Shown: one piece after another, positions 9,652 through 52,774 of the stretch
Position numbering within the stretch: position 1 is the stretch's first letter
Layout: each line of letters begins with the position of its first letter
Assembly (NCBI RefSeq): GCF_027579695.1
Contig: NC_083577.1
Coordinates: 29,979,698 to 30,043,697 of the forward strand
Direction of reading: 5' to 3'
DNA from: Neoarius graeffei
Taxonomy: Eukaryota > Chordata > Actinopteri > Siluriformes > Ariidae
DNA: 64,000 nucleotides
The notes under the pieces: model-generated
The model's input: only the letters and a program-made list of their open reading frames with translations
The model's database searches: none
Told to the model about the DNA's origin: nothing
Position numbers and translations under genes: made by a program

Positions 9652-10244
9652 CACACACTTACACACTTTCACACACACATTTACTGATAAATTACTGCCA
9701 TTCCTACATGTTTATGGTTCCATAAAGATCCTCCCACTTGAGTGCTCTGTAAGAGTGAATCAGATCAGTTAGCACTGATGTTGTTTTATTCCAGTTCATT
9801 AATAAAATACTGCAGATTAAAAGATTAGTGTTCTTTGTGTAAGTCTTTTTTCCCCCTTTTGGAAACCCTGAAGCACAAACTGTGATTTTTTTTTTTTTTT
9901 CAGGTGAATCAACTCAAAATATTGACAGAATATCTTGAAATAATGAATTAACTCAAATAATAAGATATCTTAAAATATTATGATATATTTTGAAAGCACG
10001 AGGAAGTCAAAATAGTAAGTGAAATGACAAACTGTCTTGAAATAACAAGGTATTAACTCAAAATAATGACTTAGCGTTTAATTAAAACCACAAAAGTGTG
10101 TTTAATGCAGAATGAGCTGAAAAGAAATTTTATTTTAGTTTTTAAATAGTTTAAATAAACTGAGAATTTGTTTCTTAGTTTATTCTCAGTAAATATGTCT
10201 TTACTGTATTTGTACTTGTTTGCATTTGCTGTTAATCTTGGATT

Positions 10245-10282
<38 letters not shown>

Positions 10283-10800
10283 CTGTGCAGTGGAGGAGAA
10301 TTCCAGCTCTAAGTTTCCCTCCACCAGCAGTTTGTGGTTTTGTAAAGATCAGATGGATTTGTATGTTAATGCTGCATTAGGTGATGATTCACAAGTTCAA
10401 ATCAATTCTGAGTGAAATAAATTCACTTTGTTCATTCTGATAAACATTGTTAATCTGCATAATGGGACAATTAAAATATGCACAAATAAATATCTGTAAT
10501 CTGTGTAATGTTTGTATTAACAGTTAAAATGTTCATGATGTGCACAGTTATATATTTGTACAGATGTGTGCAGTGGTTGTTGTTATTTACATGATTAGTA
10601 TCAGGGATGTGTTCAGTTTAATGTGTGTGTAAGTGATCACTGAGAGGATGTGGAAGAGAGAGAGGCAGGTGAGAGAGTCAGTCATTAAAGGTGTTAAAAG
10701 CAACAATTTTCTCAATGTTCTCTATCGTCATTTAACCACAAGTTATATTTAACTCTCATCCATTATCCCTGGCTGCTGTATCATATGGGTTAAAACATGA
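9652..10800 (+). other. TRIM gene 1 3' region (recurrent unit)
   Basis: Polyadenylation signal AATAAA at 9801-9806. From about 10120 to 10790 the sequence, with a GT microsatellite near 10248-10277 and the phrase GTGCAGTGGAG, recurs at 33780-34510, 41890-42420 and 52130-52535. This is TRIM-unit downstream DNA. No separate gene is supported; the short frame after the GT run is noncoding in character. Confidence 0.6.
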
Positions 10801-33779: not shown

Positions 33780-33909
33780 TTATTTAAATTTATTTAATTT
33801 TATTGATGCATTTTAAATAGTTTTAAATAAATTGAGAATTTGATGTCTCATATCTTGAATGTATTTCTATTTGTTAGTGTTTGCTGCTAATCTTGGATGA
33901 AATGTTTAG

Positions 33910-33975
<66 letters not shown>

Positions 33976-34515
33976 AACTGTGCAGTGGAGAATTCAAGCT
34001 CTAAGTTTCCCTCCACCAGCAGTTTGTGGTTTTGTAAAGATCAGATGGATTTGTATGTTAATGCTGCATTAGGTGATGATTCACAAGTTCAAATCAATTC
34101 TGAGTGAAATAAATTCACTTTGTTCATTCTGATATTAAACACTGTTAATCTGCATAATGGGACAATTCAAATATGCACAAATAAATACATCTGTAATCTG
34201 TGTAATGTTTATTATTAACAGTTAAAATGTTCATGATGTGCACAGTTATATATTTGTACAGATGTGTGCAGTGGTTGTTATTTTCATGATTAGTATCAGG
34301 GATGTGTTCAGTTTAATGTGTGTGTAAGTGATCACTGAGAGGATGTGGAAGAGAGAGAGGCAGGTGAGAGAGTCAGTCATTAAAGGTGTTAAAAGCAACA
34401 ATTTTCTCAATGTTCTCTATCATCATTTAACCGCAAGTTATATTTAACTCTCATCCATTATCCCTGGCTGCTGTATCATGTGGGTCAAAACATGACAAGA
34501 TCTGTCTCGTCTCCT
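33780..34515 (+). repeat. Orphan copy of TRIM 3' region
   Basis: Nearly identical to the DNA downstream of TRIM genes 1 and 2, including a GT microsatellite at 33913-33964, GTGCAGTGGAG, and TCACTGAGAGGATGTGGAAG. No TRIM exons lie upstream within 15 kb on this strand. It marks a TRIM unit whose gene has been lost or displaced. Confidence 0.8.
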
Positions 34516-40500: not shown

Positions 40501-41547
40501 CAATTTTACTTGGCAACAGAATGTATCTGAATTCTGATTGGTTGTTGTATCTGAATTCTGATTGGTTGTTGTTATATTATTGGCCTTCTGTTGTCTTGAG
40601 CCCAGAGCGGAGGGGGGGAGGGGGAGGAGGGAGTGACAGGGTTCTACAGAGAAAAGTTTTTGCCCCCGCTTTCAAATGAAGCCCCTCGAGAACCAATCAG
40701 TTCAGCGGATGTGTGTTCTCGGTATGGGACGTTTTCAAAAGAGAGGCGGGAGGAACCAAACATTTCTGATCCAGAAGGCGGAGGCTGTTTTGCTTATTAC
40801 ATGAAAATGTTTGAGAGCGAATATTCATGAGGGAATTTTGCATGCTGTTTCACCCAGTGGAAACCTACAGGAACCATTTGTGTACCGCGATTTTTTTTCC
40901 TCAATCAGAAATATCGGTCGGGACACGCCCATACCGTCCATACCCAATTCTACACCTCTGCAGTAAGACTCTTAATTCTGTGTGTGTGTGTGTTTTCAGC
41001 ACCTGTAACTCTGGACCCCAACACTGCTCATCCTAAACTCATTGTATCTGATGATCTGAAAAGTGTGAGACGCAGCGATGAGGAACAGAAACTTCCTGAT
41101 AATCCAGAGAGATTTGATGATGAATATCTGTGTATCCTGGGATCTGAGGGCTTTAACTCAGGGACACACTGCTGGGATGTGGAAGTTGGAGACTGTACAG
41201 TGTGGATTGTGGGTGTGATGACAGAATCTGCTCAGAGGAAGGGGGAGATATTCTCCAGAAGTGGAATCTGGGGTGTGGTGTATTATGATGATGAATATGG
41301 CGCAATTTCAACACCAGATACAGGCACTCATCTCTCAGTAGCACAGAAACTCCAGAGGATCAGAGTGAAGCTGGACTGGGACAGAGGAAAACTGTCATTC
41401 TCCGACCCTCTCACTAACACACACTTACACACTTTCACACACACATTTACTGATAAATTACTGCCAGTCCTAGGTGTTGATCATAAAGAATCTCCTATAA
41501 AGATCCTCCCACTTGAGTGCTCTGTAAGAGTGAATCAGATCAGTTAG
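37572..41547 (+). CDS. TRIM35/A33-like E3 ubiquitin ligase gene 2
   Basis: Exons: 37572-37970, 38124-38219, 38309-38537 (or from 38334), 38666-38688, 38775-38893, 41000-41547. RING at residues about 11-55 ([21 protein letters not shown]), B-box about 90-130 ([13 protein letters not shown]...H), coiled coil ([28 protein letters not shown]), then PRY ([15 protein letters not shown]) and SPRY ([30 protein letters not shown]). From the usual acceptor exon 3 stops early, being 2 nt short of the family phase. From the AG at 38332-38333 the whole gene stays open: 1389 nt, 462 residues. Whether splicing uses that site decides if the gene works. It is a tandem duplicate of gene 1, with the same intron-5 SINE and hAT. 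Expected role: cytosolic RING ligase with a SPRY target-binding domain. Confidence 0.75.
39114..39399 (+). mobile_element. Older V-SINE in TRIM gene 2 intron 5
   Basis: Orthologous to the copy at 7581-7870 (same site, same ATGGACGGATGG tail). A duplicate of an insertion that predates the TRIM duplication. Confidence 0.8.
39683..40468 (+). mobile_element. hAT (Charlie-like) in TRIM gene 2 intron 5
   Basis: Same insertion as 8156-8712, with the same CTCTAGAA duplication (39675-39682, 40469-40476). Here the N-terminal coding remnant reads [14 protein letters not shown]...[14 protein letters not shown] through a CxxC. The copy is longer because of about five tandem AAAGCACAGATGTTTAAAATG units (40020-40210) and a SINE tail fragment. 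Confidence 0.85.
40296..40371 (+). mobile_element. V-SINE 3' end fragment inside the hAT
   Basis: TCTGGGATAGGCTCCAGC...GATAAAGCGGCTAGAGATAATGAGATGAGATGAG-type sequence inserted relative to the homologous hAT in gene 1. It is a heavily 5'-truncated SINE that arrived after the TRIM duplication. Confidence 0.8.
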
Positions 41548-41621
41548 CATTGATGTTGTTTTATTCCAGTTCATTAATAAAATACTGCAGATTAAAAGAT
41601 TAGTGTTCTTTGTGTCAGTCT

Positions 41622-41648
41622 CCCCCCCCCCCCCCCCCCCCCCCCCCC
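41622..41648 (+). repeat. 27-base poly-C tract in TRIM gene 2 3' flank
   Basis: Twenty-seven consecutive C residues where gene 1 has TTTTTTCCCCC (near 9846). A copy-specific expansion. Confidence 0.9.
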
Positions 41649-41889
41649 TTTTGGAAACCCTGAAGCACACTGATTTTTTTTTTTCAGGTGAATCAACTCA
41701 AAATATTGACAGAATATCTTGAAATAATGAATTAACTCAAATAATAAGATATCTTAAAATATATTATGGCATATTTTGAAAGCACAAGGAAGTCAAAATA
41801 ATAAGTGAAATAATGACACACTGTCTTGAAATAAGAAGGCATTAACTCAAAATAATGACTTAGCGTTTAATTAAAATCACAAAAGTGTG

Positions 41890-42422
41890 TTTAAATGCAG
41901 AATGAGCTGAAAAGTATTTTATTTATGTTTTAAATAGTTTAAATAAACCGAGAATTTGTTTCTTAGTTTATTCTCAGTAAATGTCTTTACTGTATTTGTA
42001 CTTGTTTGCATTTGCTGTTAATCTTGGATTTTGTGTGTGTGTGTGTGTGTGTCTGTAACTGTGCAGTGGAGGAGAATTCAAGCTCTAAGTTTCCCTCCAC
42101 CAGCAGTTTGTGGTTTTGTAAAGATCAGATGGATTTGTATGTTAATGCTGCATTAGGTGATGATTCACAAGTTCAAATCAGTTCTGAGTGAAATAAATTC
42201 ACTTTGTTCATGCTGATATTAAAACTGTTAATCTGCATAATGGGACAATTAAAATATGCACAAATAAATATATCTGTAATCTGTGTAATGTTTATTATTA
42301 ACAGTTAAAATGTTCATGATATGGATGTTTATTTATTTGTACAGATGTGTGCAGGGGTTGTTGTTATTTACATGATTAGTATCAGGGATGTGTTCAGTTT
42401 AATGTGTGTGTAAGTGATCACT
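41890..42422 (+). repeat. TRIM gene 2 3' region (recurrent unit)
   Basis: Matches 10120-10650, including the short GT run near 42033 and GTGCAGTGGAGGAGAATTC. It is cut at AAGTGATCACTGA by a hAT-like end. Confidence 0.75.
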
Positions 42423-42536
42423 GACTACGTTTACATGCACATCCAAATCGAGCTGCTGTCGGTAATCGAGCTGAAGGTCCCAGCAGGGTGCCAGAGAAAT
42501 CCAATCCTACATGCACACAATGAAATCGGGCTATTG
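42423..42536 (+). repeat. Left end of hAT-like element (CTACGTTTACATGCAC family)
   Basis: Close match to 57194-57306, the left end of the nested element set. Here it is cut off after about 114 bp where copy B begins. The remainder is not found on the far side of copy B. Confidence 0.65.
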
Positions 42537-42538
42537 TA

Positions 42539-43362
42539 TGAAGGTAGGATAGTGCCATATATCCCAAGAAGAGCAGACTATGATTTGCACTTGTAAAACC
42601 CGTAATTCGCAACTTGTGAATGCGCATCTCAGAGTTTGTAAGTGTAACTTCAGATCCACACATCTGCAAATAGCAAACTGCAAGCATATTTCACAACTTG
42701 TGAAAGCGCATCTTCGAATTTGCACTTGTAACTTCAGATCTGCAAAGCTGCACAACAGGATTTGCATGTGCAGGTTCCTATTTGCTCGCTCAGTTGCGTC
42801 ATCCTTCTCACGTGATTTTTGGCACGATTCACTCGGATGGATTTGAAGGAAACGATTTGCGCGCAGAGACCAGGAATGCCTGTTCTACCACTTTTGTCCA
42901 GGAGGTGGCAGTGTGGTTATTGGCCCTGCAAAGTCGTATATAGGGATAATATCTCAATAAACGGCTCTGTGGCCATGAATCTTGGTCTGCGACACGGCGC
43001 CACGAAAGCATGGAGGGAAGAGGTGTTCAACAACGTGTAAGTAACATTATGGTTTAAATGTCTTATAGTTAACTAACTCTGTAATATACACGGTTAGTGA
43101 AATTATCCTATTTGAGGTAATGTGCACGTAAAAGCAGCCTTGAAGAATGAGGTAATTAGGCTATCTTGACAGGCTAAGTTGGCTAACTATATTGTAATAC
43201 ACGTGTAGTAACATTTACAGTTAGCGAAATTATCCTAATAGAGGAAATTTGCGAGCGATACAGCTTGAAGAGTGTAGGTAGTTATCTTGAGAAGCTACGT
43301 TAGCTAACTGTATATAGTAGGCTAACGTTTCACAGCAGTGGCGGGCTGACCATCGGGAGCAC
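42539..43362 (+). repeat. Left terminal inverted repeat of copy B
   Basis: Contains iterated ACTTGTGAA / TTTGCACTTGTAA / CTTCAGATC motifs (42580-42780), then a GC-rich part with CAATAAACGG, the start codon at 42975 and a donor after 43034. All of it is repeated in inverted orientation at the right end. It probably holds transposase binding sites and a promoter. Confidence 0.85.
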
Positions 43363-45578
43363 TCCTGGTGGCCTGACAGTTAGCCTGATTTAAACAGTCA
43401 ACTTCACCAGCAATAATATAGTAAGCAATTAAACACACCTATGACAATGGGCAACATTGGATTGTGGTATATTAAAACGCGCTGCCTGTCTTTGGGCTGC
43501 ACAGAGTATCCGCCTCCACTGAGAGAGGAGCGGAGCAGTATTATTTTTTCCTGAGTGCTGCAGTGACTATTGGCGGCTTTCCCTCCTGTTTTTCAGGGAA
43601 AAAACGATATTCAAACAGAGAACTTAATTGACATAAGGAGAGACCATTTTTAAATCTATTTTGTACATCATTTTCCCCTAGACATATAAACATGTTTATA
43701 CGACTATGGTTTTTCGATATTTTCTCCGCTGTCCATGATTTGTCAGTCAATAGTTATTTGGCTACCGGTACTTTACTACTGTTATTGTTACCATTCATAA
43801 GCGCATTGATATGGAACGGTGATTACTTTTTTGGGGACTACTTCAAAGGTAGGCCATTTATACGACGTTAATGGCCACCCCATCAGCCAATCAAGGAAGA
43901 GAATCCCATTGTTAAGGGAGATAAAAGTGATGCAGAACCTATGTATGTTTGCTAAGTGCCTTTCATGTATAGTACAATAACAATGGAAAATTGTCTTTTA
44001 TTTACAGGCACTGTTGCGTCATGTCCTTCAAAGACTGCTTACACGCCTGGAACATGTCCTGCAACAGCCACACCTGGACATGGACTTCATGCAGTTTGTA
44101 TGTTGTCAGGAGAGAGTTTTTCTCAGTGCCATAGCAGGTCAAGTCACTATTCCAGCAGAGGTAATTGCAGGAATAGATGAACTGGACCGTACGATCAACA
44201 CTGAGATTGATCAAGAAAAAGTAACAGCATTGAGTATGGAGCAAGGTGCAAGAGGGCGCCCAAAGACACTCATTTCTGACGAGCAAATAAGCAGCCTGTT
44301 GGAGTTGTCGTTCCCTGTACCGACAATTGCTGATTTACTTGGGGTGTCCATCAGAACAGTGCGTCGGCGGATGGAGGAGTTCAACCTTAGTGTTAGGGCC
44401 TCCTACAGCAACCTCTCAAATGAGCAGCTTGATGGGATTGTGTCTGAGATTAAAACCAGGATGCCACGTGCAGGATACCGCATGATGAAAGGGGCATTGG
44501 AGGCAGAAGGACACAAAGTGCAGTGGGATCGTATCCGAGCATCACTGCATAGGGTGGACACCCTTGGTGTGTATTCCTGCATGATAAACCTTGGGTGTGT
44601 GGTGAGACGGAGCTACTTTGTTCCGAGCCCAAGGTTTCTCATGCACATTGACACCAATCACAAACTGATCAGGTTAGTTTTTTTTTTGTTTAATCATGCC
44701 TGATGTTTAATTAAAAGTGGTGATATTCACAACCACCGAACTAAAGGAGTTTACATAACTGTGTGGAAGATAGTCAAAGGAGTTAAGTTGTAAGCAACTG
44801 GACTCCTTGTTGGAGCTTGAAGACCGTTCACCTTTTATCCCCAAGGCTTTTTCAGTTCTGGCCTGATGTTTGAAAACCAGGAATTATATCTCTGGATCAC
44901 TGGAGGTGTGAACCACACCCCTCATTTCCATGACAAAGGGGTCATGAGTTACCCATCAAGGTGTGAATTGGAGTGAGATAACTCCTGGTTTCCAACATCA
45001 GGCCAGAACTGAAGAATCCTTTTGGATAAAAGGTGAAATGTCTTCAAGCTCCAACAAGAAGCCCAGTTGCTTACAACTTAACTCCTTTGACTACCATGAC
45101 CGAATGAGAATCTACACAGACAGCTATAAGGTGCAATTTGCCATTCTGGCAAATGGATTTTTGTATTGTTCCACAGTCAAATTATGACACTCCTTTCTGT
45201 GCTCTTGAGACTGAAATAATGTACTGTTCTAAACCAGTTTTCCAACATAAAGATTTTTTTAGAGTGGAGAAGAAGACTGCACCTTTTTAAAATATACATT
45301 TTATCCCAAGATAGTGAACAAGTGTTTCACATGGGATCATGACTTTGTTTTAATATCACTTTCAGGTGTTAAACATTCCCCTGCTTGACTGGGAAAGCAG
45401 TGGACTGAGAACAGATCCAAACCCTGGGGTTACTGTGCCTTCAATTGCTTGCCCTTTGAGCAGTGCACAAATGGAGGAGTTGAAACAAAGGGTCAATCCA
45501 ACGGCTCCATCTTTGTCCTTTGGCACAGACCAGTACCTGGCAACTCTGCAAGCGGTGCAGAATATGCTTGCAAGTTAA
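42975..45578 (+). pseudogene. IS3-like (rve) transposase gene of copy B, core exons missing
   Basis: Exon 1 (42975-43034, 20 codons from MNLGLRHGATK) lies in the terminal repeat. Exon 2 (44008-44672) reads ALLRHVLQRLLTR, then an HTH (VPTIADLLGVSIRTVRRR), the IS3 OrfB-like HTH_21 block (AGYRMMKGALEAEGHKVQWD) and FLMHIDTNHKLIR with the first catalytic Asp. It ends in phase 2. The next recognisable exon (45366-45578) is the C-terminal tail (EELKQRVNPTAPSLSFGTDQYLATL) and starts in phase 0. The core exons seen in copy A (GCIDGFSRK, YLRAADNN, VRVDQGGENV) are absent, and a palindromic element occupies the gap. This copy should not make an active integrase. Confidence 0.75.
44770..45095. mobile_element. 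Palindromic element in transposase intron region
   Basis: About 50 bp at the left (AGTTAAGTTGTAAGCAACTG, GTTGGAGCTTGAAGAC) is repeated in inverted form at the right, with a second inverted block around GGATAAAAGGTGAA / CCTGATGTTTGAAAACC. The total is about 325 bp. It sits where the integrase core exons would be expected. Confidence 0.65.
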
Positions 45579-45835
45579 AATATTGTAGTTACCACAATGT
45601 TAATGTCCACTTTTGTTACTTAAATAAATAAACATGCTGATGTTTTACAGTGCTTTTAATGTTTTTTTTTCCCTTCTTCACTTTAGATGTTGACACACTT
45701 AACAGGCAGTGCTTCTACAAAGACAAAAACAGTCATTCCAGAGAACCTAAACCTTAAAAAATTGAATGAAATTACATGAAAGGTTGCATATACTGTAGAA
45801 AGTCAATCAAAATAACTTTATGCCTGTGTCACTTG

Positions 45836-48800
45836 TTATATGAGTCCAAATCCAGTGTTGCTTGTTTTGATGCACGCCTCTAGGTCCTTTTGAAACTGCC
45901 TGAAATCAGTGTAATGAGTGGGAAGACAGAGTGTTTCAAAACAAGTTGCTGCTCTTGGGTACTTTGATGAAGTCATCGCGACAATGAGTTCACGGGGCAA
46001 GACCTCCCATCCAGTCCAAAAACGCAGCAGTTCTTTCCAGTCATTGCTGGATGCTGCAGGTGAAAGACCAGATGTCTGTTGACCATACTTTACAAAATGA
46101 TGGATTCTTGAACAAATTGAAGTTGGGTGGTCTCTGTTTACATCCATGTCCAGTCATAATCAGTATTAGCTGCAGCATGTATATGGATGGTATAAGATAC
46201 TAATACTAAGACACTTAATACTGATTATGAGTGGACATGGACGTAAACCGAGAACAGTCAGACATTAACTGACAGCACGTTTACATGACAAAGTAAAATA
46301 TAGAAAATATTCTTTAGACGTTACAAATAACTGGTCACCTACCAGTCTCAATAAATTCACGAAGGTATCCTGTTATGCGACTTGTAGTCGCGACTGGACA
46401 TTCATCTTCAGAGTCGTCATCTGTAGCACTGGGCCAGGTAATTACACGTAGAATGGCCTTGAAACATTTTCAGAAGGTTAGAGTTAGATCTGAGATCAAC
46501 CACAGTTCCCCTTAAAGGCTATGCACTTGGCACTTAAGCATTTTTGTTTTACCTCTGAAGTCAATGAGGCATCCTTCTCCCTTGGAAAAATTAAGGGTAC
46601 CACATCAGGTTTTTCTGTCATGAGATGCCAGAGATGAGTCTCTTTTAGACCCTTGCGCAGTTGCTTCACTTGTCTGGTGGTGCGTCCAATGACCTTTAAA
46701 AATGAGAAATATTTTTATGTTAGGAATGCAGTGTCCTTGGTCCATGGATAACATCTTGTATAAAAGAAGGTTCGAGGAATTAGCTATCGACATGGCCATG
46801 AAACGGAACATCACTTAGTAAATGCTGTTGCTAAATGCTGTGATTGTGAATAATTTTATTTTTTCCATTAAAAACCCATATGAAACACATTTAAAATAGA
46901 ATTGAAATCCTGAAAATTAATTTATACATGTTAACAGGACTAATGTTGGTTAAAAATAAACTCGTTATCTGTTATGGCAGTCTTTTTATGTGGACAGATT
47001 TCTCCCCAAGGAACCCTAATGGGAAAAAATCTGTAATTGAGGCACAAGTGTTAAATGCCTAGACTAAGTGCACATTGAATCTTTTGCTCCATCTACAGTA
47101 CTGCTCTCTAGTAATACAGTAACTGCAAAGTAGGACTCACAGAATGAAGCATTTTTTCACATAACCATCTTCGGTTATTTTCAGTTACTCTGGGAAGGTC
47201 CCATGCAAAGGCCAAATTCTGAACACGCACTTTCTCTTGTTCTGATAGCTCTGATGTTCCATCAAGCTGTAAAAACAAACAATGCAAGCATGACATTTGG
47301 AAAATGTTCACCGTTTTGGACAATGCAAGGCCAACAGTTATTTCAACTCAACACACCAAAGTGATTGTTTCACGAATGTCAACATCTGGGCAGTCCTTTA
47401 TGATTACAGTTGCCACGTCAGGGCTTCCGCCAAGGAGGACGTGTAGTATTGCCTGGCTCATTCCCACAAAACCTGGGCCACCATGGAGAAAACTATGTCC
47501 CAGCATCCTTCCAGCCATCTGGAAAAGGTCGCTGTCAACGAGCAGTGATGACGAAGGAACCAAGTAGTCTGGCTCACCCTCAAAAAGCTGAGTGATATTG
47601 GCATTTCCTGCATTCAAAATGACAAATATACCAACCTTAACAGATGAACATTCTGTTCATTGAATACAATTCTTAAAACAAACAAACAAAAAAAAAATGC
47701 ACAGAATAAAATTATATTCACCACAGTTCAAAGAAAATCCTGATCTCAGCTTTTGCATGCAGATGGAGAAGAAACGGGTCACCCCCTCTCCAATAGCAGT
47801 GTCCCCTAGGATGGACATGAGAAGTGTTCAATTCAATTCAATAGAGCACATAATTTTTAAGTTTGTGTAATTCTTACCCTCCAATTTGCAATTCAATGGA
47901 CCTGCCCAGTTTTTTTGGTGTGCTTTATAGAATGCAACAATTGTCCTGTCCTGGTCTTCTGGGCTCTCTCTTAAATCCATCCTTAAACACAGTGGAGGTC
48001 CAGAGTCATGCGTTTTGAGAAGAGCCTCTCTGAACAGTATGGCAGCTTTAGCAGGGTCCAAGGCTACTTGCCACTCTGTTCATATAGTAGAGTGAGGAAA
48101 AATAAGTCAGATTGAATGTGTGTATCCCATAAATATTTTTTCCAATTACACTTGTTAACAAATCTTGTTATACCATCTGTAGTAGAATCAGTGGGTGCTG
48201 CTACTGAGAAACTTCTGGATGGACCTTCTAGGGCCTCCAACTGTGCCATCTGATGGATCAATGTCCCTAGTAGTATAAATACAACACAATGATTAATGTA
48301 ATTCTGACATTCACAAACCCGTTTCTTTTTCCAAAACAGTAAGTAGTCTCATGTCACTCTTATGGTAGCACATGTAAATAAAATGTTACTTCTGTAGGGT
48401 AAAAGATTGATTATAAATGTAGATAATATCCATGTTGTTACACTTGGTTCTTAGAACCCAGGTCTCCCAGGTGGTAATCTGTGGACAACCCACCAGTCTA
48501 CTGAGCTGAGAATGGTACGACTCAATAGCAGGCTAAGGAAAGTCTTTAGTGCATGGGTTTATTCCAATAGTAACTCAAGGCAAAAGCTCAGTTTCTCAAA
48601 CAGATAATTCCAGTTAGCACAGCAGGTCAACAGGAAAAGAATAGGCAAATCCAGTTCACAAAAAACACAGAAAATCCAAACAGATATATTCCACGAGGTA
48701 AGTTTAACAGGTAATCCAAAAGGTGAGTTCAGTCCACAAAAAGCACAGAAGATCCATAAGGCAAAACATAGGCAGAACAGGACATAGGTACTTCAGAACA

Positions 48801-51635
48801 AGGAAACCAGTGAAAACAAGAGAGAGTTCCTTACTGTGTTCTCCTCGAAGACTCAGCAACGACTGAATGAAACACATGGCTTAAATACAAAATGGCTAAT
48901 GAGTGGCAAGGCAGGCACATGACCAGAGTAACAGGGTGCAGGTGAGAGTAATCAACCAAGGACACAATAGGAAAGGTAACATCACATGAGGCTAGCCCAC
49001 AAGGGCGACATCTAGTGGCCAAAACACAAATGTCCAGAGAGTGGTGAAGGAAGTCCATGAGTGTGACACATGTTTCTGATGATCAGATTTTTCTGTGATA
49101 TACACAGTAACAATAATGACAACCATGTATGTTACACAACTCTTTTCGATTATTTTTGGATGGACTATTGTACATAACTTTAGTCATTTCTAAACTGACT
49201 GAATAAATCAAAGTACTTACCTCTCACCACACATGCTGGCATGCATTTCAATTGTGGCAGAGGAGAATACACATGAACACACTGGACATGTTGCATTGTC
49301 CTCTGGGATCTCATCACATGCTTCAGAGTCCTGGATTTTGAAGGAAATTGAAACTATTAACACATACTGTGCGTTACTACATTCCAGAAATACAATCAAA
49401 GAGAGAATTTTCACTTTAAAAGGGACATCATTATTGAAAGACAACCTCTACGGGAAAAATTACTTCATGTACTTGATAAGTGTAGTGATAACCTAAGCAG
49501 TACAGTTATATTATGAATATATTTGTTAGTATTTAACAGATTCATAACGTTAAAAAGTACACCAGGAAAATTCAAGAAGTCATTTACACCTCATCATGAA
49601 CCTTGTCAACAACTGTATAGGCTACTGTGTTGTAAATAGCAGGCCTATTAATGCGCTGGACATAAAAGTACAGATATTTATCATCATTATAGGTTTGTTA
49701 GTAAAATAGTGAACCTGTAGTGTCCCTTGACATTTCTCCAGGTGGACTAGCAGAACATGCACCGGCATTCTTGACCCACATTTTTTACAGTCACTTTTCG
49801 GCATTTTTGAAAAGAAACTGTCATCTTGTGGGAGGGGAGTTGTATCAAGTTCTTCTTGCAGAGGCATAATGAATAGTGTGTTTTTGCCATTGTTAGAAGC
49901 AATTTTTAACTGTCTGGCAGAGTACCCCTCTGCTTCGGGTGGAAGCAAGCTTAGCTTGCGTTGTCCAGTGCCTCCTATACAAAAAGAACACACACACACA
50001 GATTTATATTACTCTTTCATAATAATTTTAATCTTATTTGAATAACGTGAGGTCTAGTTCAGTAAATGCTACCTGAGGCTTTGTAGAGGAGCCATCCCCC
50101 AGTTAAATTCCCCATTTTGGGAAACTCTTGGGTTAGAAGTGATGTGATCTAAGAGAAGATAAAACTTAAGCTCAAGACAGATCTGATACAGGCTGAAATG
50201 CTAATATAAGATCAGCTGTAAATTAGTTTGTACCTGGGTATGGTCACTGTCCTCTGACATAGAAACATTCTTCCGGCCAAGCCCTGACATCAAATAGGAT
50301 ACTTCATCAGACGGCTGTGGTGTGCGGCTCATGGTCTTTGGAAGCAGGTAAAAAATAAAAGAGCATGTCTTGGAGACCGAGACATTTTGCCTTACTCCAA
50401 CATATGGCCTCTTTCTACCTCTTTGACCTCTCTGGAACAATCCAGGAAATGACCTGAAAAAAAAAAGACATTCAGTCATTTTGTTGACTTAAGAAACCAT
50501 TTTTTGCAGCTGTAGTATAGTCATTGATATTTCTATTCAATTCATGTGTTGAAGCACTGCAGCTCCCATTTTACTGACTGTGACAACTTTCACATGATGA
50601 AATATCAAGGGTGTAAATTTGAGTATTCAAAGTTCAGCTGAGTTAGTATCAGAAAAGCACAAGTCAAAAATACAAGGTCAGCAATCACCAGCAATTACCA
50701 ATGCCACAAATATTACCACTGAGTATTACAAGATAGGGACAGGTGCATGTGCACAAAGTGGATGGTGTTTATTTCCTCCTCATTTGTTGAACAGTTTATT
50801 TTGGTTAATATGATTTTCAAAGGTCAAACCTGGTCATTTCCTGATGAACTGTAGGCTGTTGCCCTGCAGTTAGGTTACTTTGCGGTTGAGATGTTCCCAC
50901 AGGTTCATCTGGCAATTGCTGGACAATAGGTTGCAAGACAGAGAGGAGGTTCTGTGCTGCATCCCGTATACTGACCTGTTTGGAAAAGAAACGTGAAAAA
51001 CGTAATGACTGACAGAATTTAAATGTTTCCACATACTTAAACTTTCACTTGCTCCCGTATGCCTATACACATTACAACATTCACTGCATTTTTAAAGGGT
51101 GCCGCGAAACAAGATATTTTAGGCCGCAAAAATCACAAACAGGCCAACGCAATCCTGGAGGGACTGATTAGCTAACTTGGATATTTGCAATCTAATGTTG
51201 CCCATCGACATATGTGGCGTCACGATGCTCCTGATGGTCAGCCCGCCACTGATGTGAAACGTTAGCCTACTACACGTATGTTACAAGCACAATTATATAC
51301 AGTTAGCTAACGTAGCTTCTCAGGATAACTACCTACACTCTTCAAGCTGTATCGCTCGCACATTTGCTCTATTAGGATAATTTCGCTAACTGTAAATGTT
51401 ACTACACGTGTATTACAATATAGTTAGCCAACTTAGCCTGTCAAGATAGCCTAATTACCTCATTCCTCAAGGCTGCTTTTACGTGCACATTACCTCAAAT
51501 AGGATAATTTCACTAACCGTGTATATTACAGAGTTAGTTAACTATAAGACATTTAAACCATAATGTTACTTACACGTTGTTGAACACCTCTTCCCTCCAT
51601 GCTTTCGTGGCGCCGTGTCGCAGACCAAGATTCAT
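45836..51635 (-). CDS. Transposon-borne HECT E3 ubiquitin ligase with two UBZ4 fingers
   Basis: Fourteen exons on minus: 51635-51576, 50975-50830, 50453-50234, 50148-50073, 49974-49715, 49330-49228, 48266-48174, 48063-47878, 47805-47722, 47607-47357, 47266-47141, 46693-46553, 46457-46343, 46053-45836. All have AG/GT borders and agreeing phases. They sum to 2079 nt: 692 residues plus stop, with no internal stop. Two C-x2-C-x11-H-x3-C fingers (C230/C233/H245/C249 and C269/C272/H284/C288) match the RAD18-type ubiquitin-binding UBZ4. From about residue 315 the HECT-like region follows: MDLRESPEDQDRTIVAFY, LFEGEPDYLVPSS, RQVKQLRKGLKETHLW, and KYPRAATCFETLCLP with the thioester Cys at 658. It ends GFGLI. 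Closest relatives recalled are fish G2E3-like multi-copy genes. It probably ubiquitinates a host or transposition factor (inference). The first exon lies in the right terminal repeat. Confidence 0.85.
46131..46251. repeat. Hairpin MITE in HECT intron 13
   Basis: TGTTTACATCCATGTCCAGT...ATAATCAGTATTA is followed after about 40 bp by its imperfect reverse complement (TAATACTGATTATGAGTGGA...). The inverted repeat of about 35 bp could form a stem. Confidence 0.55.
48436..49068. mobile_element. Solo LTR in HECT intron 6 (fossil)
   Basis: A 633-bp block beginning TGTTACAC and ending GTGTGACA (TG...CA), flanked by an exact 5-bp duplication CATGT (48431-48435 and 49069-49073). There is no internal coding region, so it is the product of LTR-LTR recombination. 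The clean duplication suggests it is not very old. The retrotransposon family is not determined. Confidence 0.75.
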
Positions 51636-52071
51636 GGCCACAGAGCCGTTTATTGAGATATTATCCCTATATACGACTTTGCAGGGCCAATAACCACACT
51701 GCCACCTCCTGGACAAAAGTGGTAGAACAGGCATTCCTGGTCTCTGCGCGCAAATCGTTTCCTTCAAATCCATCCGAGTGAATCGTGCCAAAAATCACGT
51801 GAGAAGGATGACGCAACTGAGCGAGCAAATAGGAACCTGCACATGCAAATCCTGTTGTGCAGCTTTGCAGATCTGAAGTTACAAGTGCAAATTCGAAGAT
51901 GCGCTTTCACAAGTTGTGAAATATGCTTGCAGTTTGCTTTTTGCAGATGTGTGGATCTGAAGTTACACTTACAAACTCTGAGATGCGCATTCACAAGTTG
52001 CGAATTACGGGTTTTACAAGTGCAAATCATAGTCTGCTCTTCTTGGGATATATGGCACTATCCTACCTTCA
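51224..52071 (-). repeat. Right terminal inverted repeat of copy B
   Basis: Inverted counterpart of 42539-43362. In the 88-codon stretch next to the end the two translations differ at one residue, and the next 73 codons are identical. It carries the HECT gene's first exon and donor, plus about 20 extra bp near 51275 relative to the left copy. Confidence 0.85.
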
Positions 52072-52129
52072 TAGGTTCTGGGAGTCCATATTTGTAGTCA
52101 GAGCATTATCAGCAGGTTTACTGACAGAG

Positions 52130-52258
52130 CTGAAAAGATTATTTAATTTTATTGATGCATTTTAAATAGTTTTAAATAAATTGATAATTTGAAAGCTCAT
52201 GTCTTTACTGTATTTGCATTTGTTAGCGTTTGCTACTAATCTAGGATGAAATGTTTAG

Positions 52259-52312
<54 letters not shown>

Positions 52313-52537
52313 CTGTGCAGTGGAGGAGAATTCAAGCTCTAAGTTTCCCTCCACCAGCAGTTTGTGGTTTTGTAAAGATCAGATGGATTTGTATGTTAAT
52401 GCTGCATTAGGTGATGATTCACAAGTTCAAATCAATTCTGAGTGAAATAAATTCACTTTGTTCATGCTGATATTAAACACTGTTAATCTGCATAATGGGA
52501 CAATTAAAATATGCACAAACAAATATATCTGTAATCT
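52130..52537 (+). repeat. Orphan copy of TRIM 3' region
   Basis: Fourth copy of the TRIM downstream unit, with a GT microsatellite at 52261-52310 and GTGCAGTGGAGGAGAATTC. It abuts copy B at its left and a hAT-like end at its right. Confidence 0.8.
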
Positions 52538-52774
52538 GCAGTGTTGGGAGTAACGTGTTACAAAAGTAATTAATTACTGTAATGCATTATACTTTTTGGC
52601 ATAACGCAGTAATGTAAGGCATTACAGGAGAGAAAACCGGTAATATTTACTCGTTACAGTGCCAGTAACGCACGTTACAATGCATTTTTAACCTGGATTG
52701 TTTTGTGGGTTTTCTTCATACAAAGTTCACGGATCACCGCGAGATCAGCTACTGATAAAAGTCCGCGCAGAACT
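52538..52774 (+). repeat. hAT-like end fragment (CAGTGTTGGGAGTAACG)
   Basis: Starts CAGTGTTGGGAGTAACGTGT and is rich in TTAC/GTAA subterminal repeats, a pattern common to fish hAT elements. The partner end is not recognised and a SINE follows. Confidence 0.6.

Follow-up and report, generated by a model that had tools for sequence, protein, structure and literature searches.

DNA transposons usually require little more than a transposase. The IS3EU superfamily is marked by TA...TA ends and 6-bp target-site duplications, as given in the part of the source available to us (Kojima 2023, PMC10045372). Some fungal IS3EU families carry further genes; in those with TET/JBP, the portion of the later report at hand places the TET/JBP gene between the transposase gene and an alpha-kinase gene in the opposite orientation (Kojima 2025, PMC12730594). 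Here we describe an element from a 64,000-nucleotide stretch of the Neoarius graeffei genome (the window), in which the transposase gene is accompanied by a convergent gene for a HECT E3 ligase.

The element of the window occupies positions 42537-52073 and is bounded by terminal inverted repeats, both defined by arm-to-arm alignment:

42537 to 43361, plus strand: left terminal inverted repeat, beginning TATGAAGG
51226 to 52073, minus strand: right terminal inverted repeat, ending CCTTCATA

The outer 780 nt of the two arms (42537-43316 and 51294-52073) differ at 5 positions, and when indels are allowed the match reaches the full limits listed above, with 848 aligned columns at 96.5% identity. 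This agrees with a previous sequence-only reading of the region, which had described near-identical inverted repeats of about 830-850 bp. The arms had been located correctly; the exact ends had to be corrected, the true borders lying 2 nt further out on each side. Each terminal repeat (42603-42755 and 51855-52007) also holds two direct units of 66-69 nt, 84 nt apart and 80% alike, which are perhaps binding sites for the transposase.

The left repeat was then used as a query against the window's own genome (2.34 Gb in 38 contigs), and matches were found at 50 or more places. These fall into 22 copies or fragments including that of the window, and the other 21 were fetched. Both ends are present in 15 of the 22. 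The TA...TA mark of IS3EU, in the form TATGAAGG...CCTTCATA, was observed in the window and in 13 of the 14 other two-ended copies, the sole exception being copy C3, whose right end is altered. A perfect 6-bp target-site duplication, the other mark of the superfamily, flanks 7 of the 15 two-ended copies, namely C14, C2:125.8M, C2:116.8M, C7, C2:114.8M, C22:2.07M and the mini-copy C22:41.0M. The duplication of C21 is near-perfect (GGAAGT with extra bases), and none was found for the window copy and six further two-ended copies. Copy C14 matches the window arrangement over its full length (98.3% over 9601 columns) and is flanked by the duplication AGTCTT. By its ends, the duplications and the DD(E) core described below, the window element belongs to the IS3EU-type DNA transposons, of which it represents a damaged copy. 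The mini-copy (L036, G000:C22:41006312-41006473) consists of the repeat ends only, 161 bp in all, within its perfect 6-bp duplication, and is a very short non-autonomous derivative.

Concerning the insertion site of the window copy, at whose flanks no target-site duplication is present, the left flank stops inside a dispersed repeat. Among 40 scored matches to 42284-42536, 32 span just the final 119-139 bases (95-100%), and positions 42417-42536 are the truncated terminus of a dispersed repeat of high copy number, which breaks off precisely where the element begins. The right flank is part of a tandem gene array; two paralogous units have it, with no element in the 300 bases ahead. A dispersed repeat on the left and a tandem array on the right make the ends unlike those of one simple insertion, and the mismatch probably arose when element copies exchanged sequence or when one flank was lost. 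The tandem gene array surrounds the element, and the reading frame before it (40984-41547) resembles a B30.2/SPRY domain, as judged by eye. The region downstream of this frame occurs four times in the window (9776-10643, 33797-34338, 41550-42424 and 52127-52538) and also at many places on contig C9.

The transposase gene lies in the left half of the element, where the following features were recognized:

43010 to 43036, plus strand: predicted transposase exon 1 (MEGRGVQQR), inside the left repeat, with an ATG, a GTAAGT donor and a phase-0 junction to exon 2
44008 to 44671, plus strand: transposase exon 2, from a helix-turn-helix-like region to the first catalytic D; open frame with sub-threshold Pfam HTH hits
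44771 to 45093, no strand assigned: palindromic sequence (inverted repeat I2), of which one copy is left in the window
45366 to 45578, plus strand: predicted last transposase exon, open to its stop, with an acceptor chosen by eye; the same exon is found in copy C18

The sequence-only reading had proposed an rve integrase at this position. A plus-strand transposase gene convergent with the HECT gene is indeed present, but a complete integrase was ruled out, as the second catalytic D and the E are absent from every frame of 43990-45580. Sister copies C6, C18 and C2:114.8M possess exons that encode the second D and the E, and C22 also has the exon with the E, which matches the Pfam family rva_4 (E 4e-25). 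An integrase-like DD(E) transposase is thus present in the sister copies, with the first D, the second D and the E assigned by eye, and the window retains the first D only. In the sister copies the core exons lie in a stretch of about 1.9 kb that is framed by two partial copies of the palindromic sequence, and window positions 44774-44978 occur twice in C6, C18, C2:114.8M and C22. The core exons of the window were presumably lost by recombination between the two partial palindromic copies. The transposase genes of three sister copies are damaged as well, with a stop in exon 2 of C18, a frame change in exon 2 of C2:114.8M and a stop in the E exon of C6.

The HECT gene runs towards the transposase gene from the right repeat:

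45836 to 51600, minus strand: HECT E3 ligase gene with 14 predicted exons and GT-AG introns, 685 aa via an alternative exon-6 donor, matching PF00632
45836 to 46053, minus strand: last HECT exon with the catalytic cysteine (ATCF), from alignment to AREL1 and to other families
48174 to 48266, minus strand: HECT exon 7, with an 11-nt deletion common to C21, from an alignment of six copies
49228 to 49330, minus strand: HECT exon 6, with the second CX2CX11HX3C motif, from the gene model
51574 to 51600, minus strand: predicted HECT exon 1 (MEGRGVQQR), inside the right repeat, with an ATG, a GTAAGT donor and a phase-0 junction to exon 2

The match to PF00632 has an E value of 1.4e-14 and a score of 54.9 bits against a cut-off of 23.9, and aligns profile positions 24-305 of 306 with residues 417-684 of the 685-aa model. 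Ahead of residue 417, no Pfam family was found at E values up to 1. Two CX2CX11HX3C motifs were recognized by eye upstream of the HECT domain; both are kept in L039, L040 and L043, three loci of other families introduced below, and in L037, L038 and L041 the searches ended short of the motif region. The exon-6 donor used in the window lies 7 nt upstream of the GTAAGT donor that keeps two sister copies open. With this sister-copy donor, the window and C21 stop at codon 306 owing to the 11-nt deletion in exon 7. Open HECT frames are present in C2:114.8M (694 aa) and in C22 (693 aa), the latter having a large insertion adjoining HECT exon 11, and those of C14 and C18 are frameshifted. An intact HECT gene in the window is not supported, since its open frame requires an exon-6 donor other than that of the sister copies. 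The HECT E3 ligase of the sequence-only reading thus holds as a convergent, minus-strand gene with PF00632, but not as an undamaged one, and the window ligase, open only via another donor, may be dead.

According to the gene predictions, transposase exon 2 follows in phase 0 on the MEGRGVQQR exon of the left repeat, and the copy of this exon in the right repeat joins the HECT gene. That the two first exons agree follows from the likeness of the arms themselves. As exon 1 of both genes lies inside the repeats and in phase, the transposase and HECT genes may share a promoter and a start.

We then followed the HECT gene through the sister copies. Its last exon is kept in 15 of the 22 copies or fragments; six of these have all 14 exons, and nine of the 22 retain part of the exon set, the last exon included. 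The fragment C2:123.4M has part of the last HECT exon region. The gene is wholly missing in the remaining six, five of which are single-ended fragments and one the mini-copy. Sixteen copies having one or more full-sized end pairs were viewed in detail; nine are short of HECT exons, and the mini-copy has none. That the last exon occurs in 15 of 22, and all 14 exons in six, indicates that the HECT gene belongs to the element. The search with the terminal repeat, which the sequence-only reading had put forward as a check, therefore returned several copies with the same two genes between the ends within this genome, and the outcome that would have spoken against the proposal, repeats that always lack the HECT gene, did not occur. 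The common occurrence of HECT-deleted derivatives, on the other hand, argues against the ligase being needed in cis.

The pairing of the two genes extends to other families. A genome search with the transposase exon containing the E as query gave 78 hits. A HECT hit lies within 20 kb for 57 of these, and the orientation is convergent in all 57, which correspond to 52 elements once five split ones are merged. Fourteen weak HECT rows stood outside the pairing count, none of them near an unpaired transposase hit. Of the 21 unpaired hits, the comparison covered two, L042 and L044, which were fetched. In both, a family profile built from the window, L037, L038, L040, L041 and L043 recognized the C-lobe of a convergent HECT gene (E 3.7e-5 and 1.8e-6, respectively). 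As both unpaired loci that were fetched turned out to have HECT, the figure of 57 pairs is a lower bound. With the same profile, L039, which is outside the profile set, scores an E value of 2.2e-29. In L037-L041 and L043, picked from the paired hits, HECT was found by tblastn or Pfam. A convergent HECT end is thus present in all eight fetched loci of other families (L037-L044), and in 9 of 9 families when that of the window is included. The active-site Thr-Cys of the C-lobe is kept in eight of the nine, L042 being degenerate. L044 (G000:C18:3431001-3441000) has a distant transposase with a 370-aa open frame, and its divergent HECT partner is visible only to the family profile.

Repeat ends with a 6-bp duplication were not found in a strict search around any of the eight loci L037-L044. 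With a looser border search, clear ends were recognized at L042 only, where an inverted repeat of about 670 nt (92%) with TATGG...CCATA ends is flanked by an imperfect duplication. The ends of the other families may lie beyond the 10-kb stretches. Viral contigs scanned with one exon of each gene gave no relatives.

The divergence of the two genes was then compared. Pairwise distances of the transposase core and of the HECT C-lobe, taken from short alignments of about 75 and 117 residues, correlate with r 0.71 across nine families, 82 of 20000 permutations being as high. When the degenerate L042 was removed, r was 0.83 for eight families (5 of 20000 permutations), and without both L042 and L044 it was 0.84 for seven families (31 of 20000). 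Among the three closest families, dN/dS was 0.15-0.16 for HECT (dS 1.9-2.1) and 0.05-0.12 for the transposase (dS 1.5-3.2). These are rough figures: synonymous divergence between families comes close to saturation, and for HECT no finite value was obtained for 7 of the 10 family pairs. Within the family of the window, no constraint was observed, with pairwise dN/dS values of 0.46-0.81 and exons diverging about as much as introns, which is expected of copies after insertion. Judged by these comparisons, the two genes look co-inherited and constrained. The proposal of the sequence-only reading, a single transposon to which the ligase belongs as a second gene, is thus supported: the repeats recur with both genes, the pair recurs in distant families, and the genes have the look of joint inheritance and constraint.

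Taking into account the duplications and TA...TA ends of the copies, the convergent arrangement in 57 of 57 pairs, the correlated distances, the low dN/dS between families and the position of exon 1 in the repeats, we consider the HECT ligase to be probably an integral accessory gene of the transposon lineage, a judgement that covers no particular substrate. The ligase gene might instead be a passenger that the transposon lineage took up from its host and that plays no part in transposition. Its deletion in 9 of 16 otherwise element-like copies, together with the lack of visible constraint within the window's family, would agree with such an origin. A passenger, however, would decay over the time needed for synonymous sites to saturate, whereas the pair is convergent in every paired hit and present in 9 of 9 families, its distances correlate, and HECT dN/dS between families is about 0.15. 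The location of exon 1 inside the terminal repeat also speaks against a passenger, which we regard as improbable.

HECT-like genes are annotated in large numbers in fish, and some family members have open frames, as would be seen if the ligases were domesticated host genes, spread by transposition and kept for a function in the host. The copies of the window's family, however, are found at many sites and are often broken or deleted, their exons and introns diverge alike, and the transposase is under constraint too, making domestication highly improbable. A host HECT gene that came to lie by chance between two repeats, or beside an inserted transposon, without forming a joint element has a probability close to nil. 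The absence of a target duplication in the window, with a dispersed repeat on one flank and a tandem array on the other, is what such a neighbourhood might look like, but C14 displays the same arrangement over its full length within a duplication of its own, and 15 copies have two ends. The recurring copies and the 57 convergent pairs rule out a chance pairing with a host HECT gene.

With the ligase as an integral gene of the element, a promoter and an identical first coding exon of 9 residues would be provided by both long terminal repeats. One repeat would drive expression of the transposase, the opposite repeat that of the ligase, and the two proteins would be produced together. The transposase would recognize and bind the repeats, cleave at the TA...TA termini and integrate the element, generating 6-bp duplications. 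The ligase, which combines a HECT thioester cysteine with two C2HC zinc-finger-like motifs, would attach ubiquitin to at least one protein that bears on transposition, a role inferred from the conservation of the ligase gene. Within this mechanism, host proteins involved in silencing, restricting or repairing the element are plausible substrates, with a chance a little below even. The element's own transposase or strand-transfer complex is possible but rather doubtful, and some other substrate is unlikely. More tentatively, and with modest expectations, one may envisage a vertebrate transposon lineage that has long carried an E3 ligase as a counter-defence, marking host silencing or repair proteins and co-expressed with the transposase via the promoter and first exon present in both ends. 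If this were true, many HECT-like gene predictions in such genomes would be transposon genes.

AREL1 and G2E3 are both cellular HECT E3 ligases. The window ligase resembles AREL1 (structure 6jx5) in its HECT domain, in the active-site Thr-Cys and in a GFG motif near the C-terminus. The match to this solved HECT structure is weak (E 0.0033, residues 635-685), and, unlike the cellular ligases, the window ligase lies in a mobile element. In the available main text of a survey of animal HECT proteins (PMC2837046), no word starting with transpos occurs. In a carp BAC, the accessible part of the report describes a G2/M phase-specific E3 ligase-like gene annotated near 5S rDNA (PMC5549377). Annotations of this kind may be transposon genes, a caution that extends to HECT-like gene predictions in such genomes generally.

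The element resembles IS3EU/GingerRoot, as far as the available text describes it (PMC10045372), in its TA...TA ends, its 6-bp duplications and its integrase-type DD(E) core (rva_4 in the sister copies). It differs from IS3EU as presented there in having repeats about 850 nt long, within which a first exon is predicted, and in its second, convergent HECT gene, HECT being absent from that text. A literature search, whose reach stopped short of most subscription papers, preprints and Repbase, did not find HECT paired with IS3EU/GingerRoot, and the pairing may already be catalogued in Repbase or in literature outside the search. IS3EU itself is known. A constrained ligase beside the transposase in several families of one superfamily suggests that modification of proteins is of importance to these elements in a fish genome, and raises the question of which protein the transposon wants ubiquitinated. 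The fungal IS3EU families, in the part of the report at hand (PMC12730594), likewise contain, as a standard component, an enzyme gene oriented opposite to the transposase gene. Their enzymes are an alpha-kinase and a TET/JBP dioxygenase, whereas that of the fish element is a HECT ligase, and the ligase would matter to the fish element as the kinase and dioxygenase genes do to the fungal relatives.
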